Below, in pieces: positions 6,531-58,500 of a stretch of 64,000 nt of DNA (position 1 is the first letter of the stretch; every line of letters begins with the position of its first letter). The translations under genes and the position numbers were made by a program. Origin of the DNA: Citrus sinensis (taxonomy: Eukaryota; Streptophyta; Magnoliopsida; Sapindales; Rutaceae); the NCBI RefSeq assembly GCF_022201045.2, contig NC_068558.1, forward strand, positions 42,861,501 to 42,925,500, written 5' to 3'. The notes beneath the pieces were generated by a model. The model was given only the letters and a program-made list of their open reading frames with translations, was not told the origin of the DNA and made no database searches.

Positions 6531-7346
6531 TCACCAAATAGTAGCAGTAGCAGCTCCACATGAGCTCATCAAAAGTTGCTCTAGATAATCAGCTCCCAAA
6601 TCTTCAAACACCACCACATTTTGCGATAATTGTGACCCTACAGCTACAGCTAGTTGATGGTGATCGCGATCTTGATTATTCATTTTAATTTTCTTGTTAC
6701 TCACCGAAGATGATGATGAAGATTTGGACTTCTTTCTGATAGAGTGTCGTTTCTTGAGAGCCACAACCGGCGAGCACCCATCTTCGCACTTGTACTTCAT
6801 TTCTTGAAGAGATTCTCTGACCATATCTGCAGGAAAATTGAGGGTAGCCAGGGAACCCCGCATTGAGAATGCAGCTTGATCGTAGGCTAAAGCAGCTGCC
6901 TCAGCGCTGTCGAATGTGCCTAGCCAAACTCTAACCCCGTTTCTCGTGGAGTCCCTTATCTCCGCCGCAAATTTCCCCCACGGCCGCCTCCTCACGCCTC
7001 TGTATGACTTGTCTGATGATGTCTTGCCCGGTGATCCCTCCTCCTCCGCCGCTTTGCCGCCACCATAATTACTTGAAGTTGAAGAAGTCACTTCGTGATC
7101 TTCTTTGTTGTTGCTGTTGTTATGATTATTACTAGAGTTGGAGTCTGCTGAAGATTCTTTAGTCGTTCCAGTTGTTGTCCCTTCGGCTAATACATCAAGA
7201 AGCAGCGTTTCCTCTGAGTCGTTGATGTTAAAAGGCAGCGAACTATTGTGGCTGAACAGAAGCTCATCCCACGAGAATGATTGATCGTCAAACGCTGATG
7301 AATTGAATGGAGACTCCGCCGAGATTTGAAGACAAGATGATTCCAT
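6531..7346 (-). CDS. ERF1: Ethylene response factor 1 (AP2/ERF group IX), ERF1/ERF1B orthologue
   Basis: Single-exon gene of 271 aa encoding a nuclear transcription factor. ERF1 is known to integrate ethylene and jasmonate signals and to bind GCC-box promoters of defence genes. The AP2 domain spans about residues 114-171 ([18 protein letters not shown], then WLGTF, ending LNFP). ERF-type residues are present (A and D in [11 protein letters not shown]). Blocks specific to the ERF1 subgroup are the N-terminal [11 protein letters not shown] (37-47), the post-domain [15 protein letters not shown] followed by a basic run (188-207, likely nuclear targeting), and the C-terminal [17 protein letters not shown] (243-259), the group IX activation motif. 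A Ser/Asn-rich spacer precedes the AP2 domain. A TATA box lies about 100 bp upstream. The family and subgroup are seen directly; the one-to-one orthology is inferred. Confidence 0.93.
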
Positions 7347-16177: not shown

Positions 16178-16263
16178 CCGTACATATGTGTTTGAATCAC
16201 CAAATTTGAAATCAAATTACAAGTCATTAGAAGAAATTGGCTGCTAGGCATTCGCGCACAAAC

Positions 16264-16746
16264 ATGAAAGCATCTCAAGGAGGAGGCAAGAACAATGAGA
16301 AGCAAAGATCAGTCTCAGTTTCAGAGGTTCGATATCGGGGAATCCGACGGAGGGCGTGGGGTAAATTTGCAGCTGAAATACGTGACCCAACGAGGAACGG
16401 TACACGCTTGTGGCTAGGGACTTTTAGCACGGCTGAAGAGGCTGCTCGGGCTTATGACAGAGCTGCTTTTGCCTTCCGGGGTCATTCAGCCATTCTTAAT
16501 TTCCCAAATGAGGGCCAATATCGTAGCCAAAGCAGCAGCGGCAGCAGCTCTTTGCCATATCTTGTTTCTCCATCACCAACTTCATTTTCTGACGCCGCTG
16601 GTGGCAATGGTTCTGCTGGCAGAGGAGTACTTTCTTCTTCAAGTGGGAAAGAAGCTGAAGTTATAGAGTTTGAATATTTCGACAATAATTTGTTGGAAGA
16701 ACTTCTTGAAGCTAGGGACAATCAGTATTGGCCTGGTAAAGAGTAA
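16264..16746 (+). CDS. Small group IX ERF transcription factor (ERF095-098 type), copy 1
   Basis: Single-exon gene of 160 aa. The AP2 domain covers about residues 23-81; the protein ends with the group IX acidic motif [18 protein letters not shown] (132-149). This domain plan and size match the Arabidopsis ERF095/ESE1, ERF096 and ERF098/TDR1 proteins. The frame is open further 5', but the only earlier start-like codon is a TTG at 16237; ATG at 16264 aligns with the start of the duplicate at 25032 and is preferred. An oddity: residue 31 is Ala where almost all AP2 domains, including the duplicate, have Pro ([14 protein letters not shown]). It is convergent with the minus-strand ERF at 18110-18615. 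Expected role: nuclear GCC-box activator in ethylene/stress responses, inferred from family. Confidence 0.9.
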
Positions 16747-18109: not shown

Positions 18110-18615
18110 TCAATCATTCTTGGTCTTGTCGTCATCAAAATTAAGAAGATCCTCCAACAACTGGTCATCCAAGTACTCAATTTCAAAAACTTCTTTCTCG
18201 CCTTCATTAGTACCACCACCTCTTTCAACTTTCTGAAACATAAGGACAGAAGATGAAGACTTTGAACAAGGAGACAAATGAAGATGAAGAATATAAGTTC
18301 CTTTCCAAAAATAAATAAATAAGAAAAGTTGAAGAATAAGTAAGGAATCGCAGCACTGACCCCAGATAAAAAATGTTCATTAGGGAAGTTAAGAACGGCC
18401 GTGGGACCTCTCATTGCAAAGGCAGCTCGGTCGTAAGCTCTTGCCGCTTCTTCAGCTGTGGTGAAAGTTCCAAGCCACAATCGAGGAGCTCCATGCCTTG
18501 TTGAGTCACGAATTTCTGCAGCAAATTTTCCCCATGGCCGCCTCCTTACTCCTCTATAACGAACGCTTGTTGCTTCCTCTTCTTTCTCTTTGGACCTTCT
18601 TCCGACTTTTTCCAT
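18110..18615 (-). CDS. Small group IX ERF transcription factor with one intron, copy 1
   Basis: Model: exon 1 18615-18361, intron 18360-18233, exon 2 18232-18110, giving 125 aa. Exon 1 encodes [14 protein letters not shown] and an AP2 domain (about residues 18-78). The 128-nt intron starts GTCAGT and ends TTTCAG, phase 0. Without splicing the frame runs into unrelated residues; with it the protein regains the group IX motif [19 protein letters not shown] (99-117). A longer 5' frame from 18681 exists, but a TATA box at 18661-18670 puts transcription start near 18635, so the ATG at 18615 is right and matches the paralogue at 27040. Most group IX ERFs lack introns, which makes this one notable. 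Role inferred from family: nuclear GCC-box regulator. Confidence 0.85.
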
Positions 18616-25031: not shown

Positions 25032-25478
25032 ATGGAAGCATCTGAAGGAGGAGGCAAGAACAATGAGAAGGGAAGATCAGTCTCAGAGGTTCGATATCGG
25101 GGAATCCGGCGGAGGCCATGGGGTAAATTTGCAGCTGAAATACGTGACCCAACGAGGAACGGTGCACGCCTGTGGCTAGGGACTTTTAGCACGGCCGAAG
25201 AGGCTGCTCGGGCTTATGACAGAGCTGCTTTTGCCTTCCGCGGCCGTTCAGCCATTCTTAATTTTCCAAATGAGAGTCAATATCGTTGCGACAGCAGCAG
25301 CAGCTCTTTACCATCTTCATCTTCATCTCCATTAATCTGTTATGATGCTGGGGGCGACGGCTCTACCGAAAGCAGAGAGAAAGAAGCTGAAGTTATTGAG
25401 TTTGAATATTTTGATAACAAGTTGTTGGAGAAGCTGCTTGAGCCAAACGATCAAGATTGGCAAGGTAAAAGCAAATGA
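25032..25478 (+). CDS. Small group IX ERF transcription factor (ERF095-098 type), copy 2
   Basis: Single-exon gene of 148 aa, a clear duplicate of the gene at 16264-16746. The N-terminus (GGGKNNEK) is shared; the AP2 domain is at about residues 21-79 with the canonical [14 protein letters not shown]; a Ser-rich linker follows; the group IX motif [18 protein letters not shown] is at 120-137. The linker is shorter than in copy 1. It is convergent with the minus-strand ERF at 26510-27040, repeating the layout of the first module. Expected to be a nuclear ethylene/stress-responsive activator, from family knowledge. Its AP2 domain looks fully canonical, so it is the more likely functional member of the pair. 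Confidence 0.92.
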
Positions 25479-26452: not shown

Positions 26453-26568
26453 TCATTCTTGGTCTTGTTGTTACTCTCCTCAAAATTAAGAAGATCCTCT
26501 AACAACTTGTCATTTCTTGGTCTTGTTGTTACTCTCCTCAAAATTTAGAAGATCCTCCAACAACTTGT
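26453..26568 (-). repeat. 58-bp tandem duplication spanning the ERF stop codon
   Basis: The block GGTCTTGTTGTTACTCTCCT...AACAACTTGTCAT occurs twice with period 58 (about 26453-26510 and 26511-26568), differing at a few bases. The distal copy lies beyond the stop codon. The duplication replaced the last residues of the ERF: the frame now ends KTKK with a TGA created at the junction, whereas the paralogue ends KTKND. Confidence 0.85.
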
Positions 26569-27040
26569 CATCAAAATACTCAATTTCAAAAACTTCTTTC
26601 CCACCACCTTCATGATCAGTACCACCTGTTTCAACGTTCTGAAACACAGAAGAAGAAGAAGAAGAAGAAGAAGAAGAAGAAGATGATGATGAAGATAATG
26701 ATGACGACGTCGAAGAAGAAGATGATGATGAAGATAATGATGACGACGTCGAAGAAGAAGAAGAAGAAGAAGAAGAAGAACCGACCCCAGATGAAAAATG
26801 TTCATCAGGGAAGTTTAAAATGGCTAAAGGACCTCTCATTGCAAAGGCAGCTCTGTCATAAGCTCTTGCTGCCTCCTCAGCCGTGCTGAAAGTTCCAAGC
26901 CACAACCGAGGACCTCCATGCCTTGTAGAGTCACGAATCTCTGCTGCAAATTTTCCCCATGGCCGCTTTCTTACTCCTCTGTAATGCACGCTTGTTTCTT
27001 CTTCTTCTTCTTTCTTCTTCCCTCTATTGGTTCCTTCCAT
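26510..27040 (-). CDS. Small group IX ERF transcription factor with poly-Ser exitron-like segment, copy 2
   Basis: Uninterrupted 176-codon frame, paralogue of the gene at 18110-18615. N-terminus [17 protein letters not shown]2 domain about residues 18-78 ([14 protein letters not shown]); then a run of Ser residues with a twice-repeated 13-residue unit (about 88-130); then the group IX motif [19 protein letters not shown]. The Ser-rich segment occupies exactly the place of the intron in the paralogue and keeps its borders: GT at 26785-26784 and TTTCAG ending at 26639, 147 nt, phase 0, no stops. Both the retained (176 aa) and spliced (127 aa) forms would be in frame. A TATA box lies at 27080-27086 with a very short leader. 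The stop lies in a 58-bp tandem duplication. Role inferred from family. Confidence 0.88.
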
Positions 27041-27329: not shown

Positions 27330-27660
27330 AATGACACTCACACAACATTAAGCACAACGCGTAACACCGAACAGTGCGTTTTGAGTCAAATATAAAAGGT
27401 TACAGTAAATCGACGGTTGCAACACACACTCTCAACTACAGCACACGCTCTCTCCCTCACTCTGTTCTTCGTCACAACACACGGCTCTCCCTCCCCCCTC
27501 CAAATCCAGCAGCCGCGGGTCACTCTCGCTCTCCAGTCTCCCCCCTCCAAATCCAGCAGCCGCGGGTCACTCTCGCTCTCCAGTCTCCCCCCTCCAAATC
27601 CAGCAGCCGTGGGTCACTCTCGCTCTCCAGTCTCCCCCCTCCAAATCCAAGATCTATGGA
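27330..27660 (+). promoter_or_regulatory. Promoter-like CT-rich repeat module A
   Basis: The sequence has ATATAAAAGGTTACAG (near 27392) followed by a leader rich in CACACAC/CTCTCCC words. Similar modules occur at about 32930-33360 (plus) and 34070-34450 (minus). Each has a TATA-like motif after a GTGCG/GTGCT-TTTTG block, then ACACACGC/CTCTCCC-rich DNA. It may be a dispersed element carrying a promoter, or leftovers of duplicated gene 5' ends. No intact coding region follows. Confidence 0.35.
27485..27652 (+). repeat. 47-bp minisatellite, about 3.5 copies
   Basis: The CAAATCCAGCAGCCG core recurs at 27501, 27548 and 27595, with a partial copy at 27642, so the period is 47 bp. Units are nearly identical, which indicates recent expansion. 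Because 47 is not a multiple of three, the same unit is read in all three frames, so overlapping open frames here are repeat artefacts. Confidence 0.9.

Positions 27661-58466: not shown

Positions 58467-58500
<34 letters not shown>
58467..58500. repeat. 34-bp poly-C tract in the ATG9 3' flank
   Basis: An unbroken run of 34 C, followed by TCCTCCC, about 150 bp beyond the ATG9 stop. On the ATG9 sense strand this is poly-G, which could fold into G-quadruplexes in the 3'UTR if transcribed. Length is uncertain because of sequencing limits on homopolymers. Confidence 0.8.

Follow-up and report, generated by a model that had tools for sequence, protein, structure and literature searches.

A serine-rich linker that is translated in one of two tandem ERF genes has probably become an intron in the other

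Two neighbouring ERF genes in the stretch of DNA analyzed here (the window, 64,000 nucleotides, G000:C3:42861501-42925500) carry, at the same place, a segment that reads as a serine-rich protein linker in one gene and looks like a short GT-AG intron in the other. An important question is which of these states is the older one, and whether the intron-like copy is in fact likely to be spliced. Translated frames and a Pfam profile search of the window identified five AP2/ERF genes:

6531-7346, minus strand: AP2/ERF gene
16237-16746, plus strand: AP2/ERF gene
18110-18615, minus strand: AP2/ERF gene A
25032-25478, plus strand: AP2/ERF gene
26510-27040, minus strand: AP2/ERF gene B

The last four are arranged as two tail-to-tail pairs, and the repeats found between these pairs coincide with the ERF genes themselves. 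The host is a Citrus, probably sweet orange or a close relative, given that an open frame on contig C4 matches the CsPYL1 chain 6zuc, a name belonging to Citrus sinensis, with full identity over 209 residues. Genes A and B are each other's closest relatives in the whole genome (299.7 Mb in 11 contigs; DNA search with 11 matching places, including A), and a tree with 14 rows pairs them with support of 88/91. The same tree pairs E16 with E25 (96/98) and C1m with ERF096 (93/95), but 6 of its 11 inner branches are unresolved, so the outgroups cannot be ordered with it. Genes A and B represent a tandem duplication of a small group IX ERF that consists of an AP2 domain, a Ser-rich linker, and a C-terminal EDLL motif. 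The AP2 domain (PF00847) scores 57.1 bits in gene B and 56.5 bits in the unspliced frame of gene A, with a cut-off of 33.3, and the comparison of the AP2 parts gives a Ka of 0.068 for a Ks of 0.43, which indicates that this part of A is constrained. The EDLL motif is in frame in gene B, and in gene A only when the gene is spliced.

The other two genes of these pairs, at 16237-16746 and 25032-25478, are much more similar in their AP2 parts (Ks 0.17) than in the 20-codon C-terminal core, where they present 9 synonymous and 3 non-synonymous differences, and this suggests that their AP2 part has been gene-converted. The window also contains a C homopolymer of 34 nt at 58467-58500. Further along G000:C3, at about 48.2-49.3 and 49.5-50.6 Mb, we observed pairs of AP2 and PF10604 matches with equal scores, 1.32-1.35 Mb apart; they represent either direct duplication on a large scale or a region duplicated in the assembly.

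In gene B, the segment forms part of the open reading frame, and the gene can be divided as follows:

26786..27040, minus strand: N-terminal part with the AP2 domain
26639..26785, minus strand: segment B, in-frame Ser-rich linker of 147 nt, with a latent GT donor at 26785 and a latent TTTCAG acceptor at 26639
26648..26780, minus strand: TTC/TCT microsatellite (AGA on the plus strand), accounting for the greater part of segment B (TRF)
26673-26773: 39-nt higher-order repeat inside this microsatellite (TRF)
26510..26638, minus strand: C-terminal part with the EDLL-type motif (comparison with ERF096 and published papers)

The layout is thus 255 + 147 + 129 nt, with a segment that reads GTCGGT...TGTTTCAG and in which 40 of the 49 codons encode Ser. 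The preliminary description of this locus had reported a stop-free, in-frame segment of 147 nt running from GT to TTTCAG, and this was confirmed on the minus strand; the product lengths that it gave, 176 aa for the whole gene and 127 aa without the segment, also hold. Most simply, the poly-Ser of gene B would be an ancestral linker that has grown through its (TTC)n repeat. Two other repeats were observed in the vicinity. The EDLL-coding end of gene B is tandemly duplicated (26456-26571, a 58-nt unit with 96% matches), with the second copy located mostly beyond the stop codon; the end of gene A resembles the end of this second copy, and the duplication seems to have given gene B a new, earlier stop. 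Just upstream of the gene, at 27491-27649, a 47-nt unit is repeated 3.4 times with 99% matches.

The corresponding parts of gene A are the following:

18361..18615, minus strand: candidate exon 1 with the AP2 domain
18233..18360, minus strand: segment A, candidate intron of 128 nt, phase 0 and 49% T, apparently descended from the same Ser linker
18253..18257, minus strand: candidate branch site TTCAT, a consensus match with the branch A at the 22nd base counted from the segment end
18110..18232, minus strand: candidate exon 2 with the EDLL-type motif

Here, the layout is 255 + 128 + 123 nt, and the segment (GTCAGT...TGTTTCAG) has a length that leaves a remainder of 2 when divided by 3. As had been claimed, the gene regains its C-terminal EDLL only when the segment is removed: the product without the 128 nt has 125 aa and carries the EDLL-type motif at its end, while the unspliced frame stays open for 213 aa (to 17974) and loses the motif. 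Segment A contains 49% T and 68% A+T, compared with 21% and 28.5% T in the flanking candidate exons, and its branch site was assigned by consensus only, this being one of 10 such matches within the segment. Following AP2, the unspliced gene would encode some 40 residues that are strongly hydrophobic (19-residue Kyte-Doolittle means of up to 2.47), perhaps merely as a by-product of the T-rich sequence.

The two segments had been described as homologous, with borders that align, and the alignment bears this out. Its score is 23, a value that was not attained in 1000 mononucleotide shuffles, in 1000 dinucleotide shuffles (mean -2.4, sd 5.1, best 17), or in the 461 other T-rich 128-mers from the window. 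When the border codons are left out, the score is 12, which was again reached by 0 of 1000 shuffles and 0 of 461 T-rich 128-mers; thus, the homology spans the length of the segment and is not limited to its borders. Linker identity between A and B is 0.71 over 126 aligned bases, close to the 0.67 that neutral drift would give with the AP2 Ks, and this counts in favor of an intron in A. Pyrimidine triplet repeats are inherently open in all frames, and segment A is stop-free in three frames, something that only 1 of 5000 dinucleotide shuffles equalled. Among all the 128-mers of the window, on both strands, only segments A and B combine at least 45% T with the absence of stops in three frames, and it is this openness that ties segment A to the Ser tract. 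A search of the genome with segment A (E <= 10, simple repeats skipped) returned only the segment itself, which, together with its alignment to the linker, gives no sign of an inserted element; within the reach of this search, a foreign origin of the intron seems unlikely. The Ser runs of segment A were also considered, but their excess was dropped as proof because it is too weak: the run measures are attained by 253 and 234 of 5000 dinucleotide shuffles, and the total Ser by 4265 of 5000.

With regard to the older state, AP2 matches were found at 132 places genome-wide, and 14 ERF genes were examined, including A and B. Four of the other 12 are small EDLL-type ERFs; in all four, the linker is uninterrupted and exonic, with 33-38% Ser, and an intron at the linker position is absent. 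The situation is similar in Arabidopsis ERF096, whose chain reads SGVSSSTAMAGSSSASASASSSS and then continues into the EDLL part: a Ser-rich linker is encoded at the same place (SGVSSS...), and SGV falls on the same letters as the donor of B and A. Given that the linker is exonic in the four paralogues and in ERF096, we take this to be the older state and place the change in gene A. Therefore, the suggestion that the poly-Ser of B had replaced or arisen from an intron was not supported, as the exonic linkers of the outgroup ERFs and of ERF096 speak against segment B as a former intron. The opposite suggestion, that an exon segment had become spliceable, fits gene A, but not segment B, for which it had been made. 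A related scenario, in which the intron was already present in the ancestor of A and B and the latter turned it into coding sequence (de-intronization), would explain why the GT and CAG borders are identical in both genes, although common borders are also expected from descent as codons. The near-pure pyrimidine repeat of segment B could have expanded inside an intron, but two events would be needed instead of one, given the exonic linkers in 4 of 4 small EDLL-type paralogues examined and in ERF096, and we consider this scenario very improbable.

We thus believe that the linker probably became an intron in gene A (intronization) and that gene B retained the translated linker. Judged from the DNA sequence, the evidence weighed for the splicing of gene A favors it, without being overwhelming. 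Within the EDLL core of 20 codons, A and B present 2 synonymous and 2 non-synonymous differences, with 18 of 20 residues in common, while about 9.4-9.7 non-synonymous differences would be expected on the A branch without constraint (the probability of 2 or fewer is 0.004-0.005). Since the core has been kept even though it is out of frame unless segment A is removed, this argues for splicing. Over the whole of exon 2 (40 codons), Ka/Ks is 0.82, with the constraint confined to the 20-codon core, and we did not use this weak value as proof. The likeness of the core could instead have been kept by gene conversion from B, and the three-frame openness of segment A is harder to reconcile with an intron that has drifted freely for a long time.

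The possibility also has to be weighed that gene A is simply broken, that is, that the linker acquired an indel that shifted EDLL to another frame, leaving an unspliced gene for an EDLL-less AP2 protein of 213 aa or a pseudogene. Such a gene would agree with the open unspliced frame of 213 aa and its hydrophobic tail, with the openness of segment A in three frames, and with splice sites whose strength is ordinary among ERF genes. Nevertheless, the drift of the linker far exceeds one indel: when segment A is read with a single frameshift, the least hydrophobic option still contains 52% FILMVWYC, compared with 9-19% for the linkers found in B and the four paralogues, so that one recent indel in a linker does not account for segment A. 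Furthermore, the AP2 part is constrained, and the EDLL core, which would then be untranslated, still matches that of B at nearly all of its residues, as described above. For these reasons, we regard a broken gene A as unlikely.

The splice sites were scored using a scoring matrix. Within the window, the donor of segment A is in the top 2.2% of 6054 GT, and the acceptor is in the top 5.4% of 6972 AG. The donor scores 7.18 in A (GTCAGT) and 5.95 in B (GTCGGT); a C at donor position +3, as in A, is uncommon. In each gene, the segment corresponds to the best GT-AG pair (rank 1 of 259 in A and 1 of 246 in B), and GT-AG pairs with at least 40% T were present in only 2 of 11 control ERF genes (20 and 3 pairs). 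However, 7 of the 11 controls hold a pair that scores above that of A, and 9 hold one above that of B; splice scores alone therefore prove nothing, and they were discarded as evidence in their own right.

These scores also bear on whether segment B could be a functional exitron, whose regulated splicing would yield forms of 176 and 127 aa that differ by the Ser linker. Its length is a multiple of three, it is stop-free, and it has a long pyrimidine tract between the borders of the best pair in the gene, but that donor is weaker than the one in A, the pair is surpassed in most of the controls, and the nearest branch-like site is the 52nd base from the segment end. Similarly, the G+C content of the segment (38%) is lower than that of the preceding exon part (47%), but not than that of the following part (36%). 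Published exitrons, according to excerpts of PMC4484396, occur in genes that lack introns as well, have weak sites, and show a surplus of lengths divisible by three, a description that segment B fits; the same excerpts give a base rate of only 3.3% of Arabidopsis genes. The direct repeat across the junction is one base only, in A as in B, unlike the reverse-transcription artefacts flagged in the available part of PMC8240250, although the internal repeats of segment B would still slip in RT-PCR. Altogether, we find a functional exitron in gene B quite unlikely.

Returning to intronization in gene A, the course of events could have been the following. In the ancestor of A and B, the linker would have been an exon. 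In B, it is still translated and has been lengthened by TTC/TCT slippage, as shown by its open frame and its repeat. In A, the linker has lost its frame and drifted to a T-rich sequence that is no longer linker-like, and it would most likely be removed as a 128-nt phase-0 GT-AG intron, joining AP2 to EDLL. Little change may have been needed for this, with the Ser codons TCT and TCA acting as a polypyrimidine tract on the RNA, the following Gln codon CAG as the acceptor, and the GT of the preceding Val codon as the donor. Once spliced, the linker frame and its Ser codons would escape selection, and a disordered linker would be cheap to splice out, given that AP2 and EDLL remain joined in frame. 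The corresponding GT and CAG of B are latent sites, with the unspliced 176-aa form expected as the main product.

A more general proposal would be that Ser-coding TTC/TCT repeats seed introns, with A representing a fixed intron, B an exitron that depends on repeat length, and retention in A a switch, but this is speculative and we would be surprised if it were correct. If it were true, the linker repeat would serve both as a flexible protein linker and as a polypyrimidine tract; spliced A would be an EDLL activator, and the retained form would be a 213-aa AP2 protein without EDLL, possibly a competitor or a membrane-held protein. According to the accessible text of PMC4659910, activation by ERF96 is carried by the EDLL part, and ERF96 without EDLL fails to activate. 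Thus, the intron of A would decide function, while AP2 and EDLL would be present in both forms of B.

It is rare to observe a newly born intron while the exon that gave rise to it can still be read nearby. Here, a tandem pair within 9 kb contains the same stretch both as an exon and, probably, as an intron, and it suggests a route in which the pyrimidine tract is supplied by Ser-codon repeats. The splicing of A would determine whether a stress transcription factor retains its activation motif; if A is unspliced, the pair amounts to an ordinary frameshift plus a microsatellite. In the open-licence literature, we found neither an exitron nor a case of intronization described for a group IX ERF, and no account of introns seeded by Ser repeats; within those papers, this is consistent with the preliminary description, where no earlier account of an ERF IX locus of this kind was known.

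Several known systems resemble this pair. Like A and B, the small group IX ERFs (ERF95-ERF98 in Arabidopsis) combine AP2, a Ser-rich linker, and a C-terminal EDLL, and the best PDB match is the ERF096 structure 5wx9 (E 4.8e-35), with EDLL as a second, weak stretch (i-Evalue 0.15). In contrast to these ERFs, the linker of B is longer, with its very high Ser content, and A appears to splice the linker out. As stated in an excerpt of PMC10218916, the majority of the genes in the citrus AP2/ERF family lack introns. De-intronization would also yield an intron in one copy and an exon in the other, but the other paralogues contradict that direction.

In intronization, as in A and B, an intron-like segment in one paralogue aligns to a translated exon of the other. 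The portion consulted of PMC3565874 describes human retrogenes that were intronized through cryptic sites, comparable to the borders that already exist in the translated copy B, and counts 29 intronized retrogenes in Arabidopsis and Populus, while that of PMC4443532 gives two cases of intronization in tomato and potato. A and B differ from the retrogenes in that they are tandem DNA duplicates, the source is a Ser-repeat linker, and the splicing of A is a prediction from its sequence. Segment B, in turn, is internal to a coding exon, divisible by three, stop-free, and bounded by GT-AG, like the exitrons of Marquez et al. 2015 (PMC4484396, in part), but it is only a candidate, known from its sequence. 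In the excerpts of that study, 45.8% of exitrons have lengths that are multiples of three, most come from coding exons, and 22 of the 252 with paralogues showed introns in the paralogue, so that a pair with an exon in one copy and an intron in the other is not unprecedented. Thus, both intronization, in plants as well, and exitrons have already been documented, and the A/B pair is a candidate for a further case.
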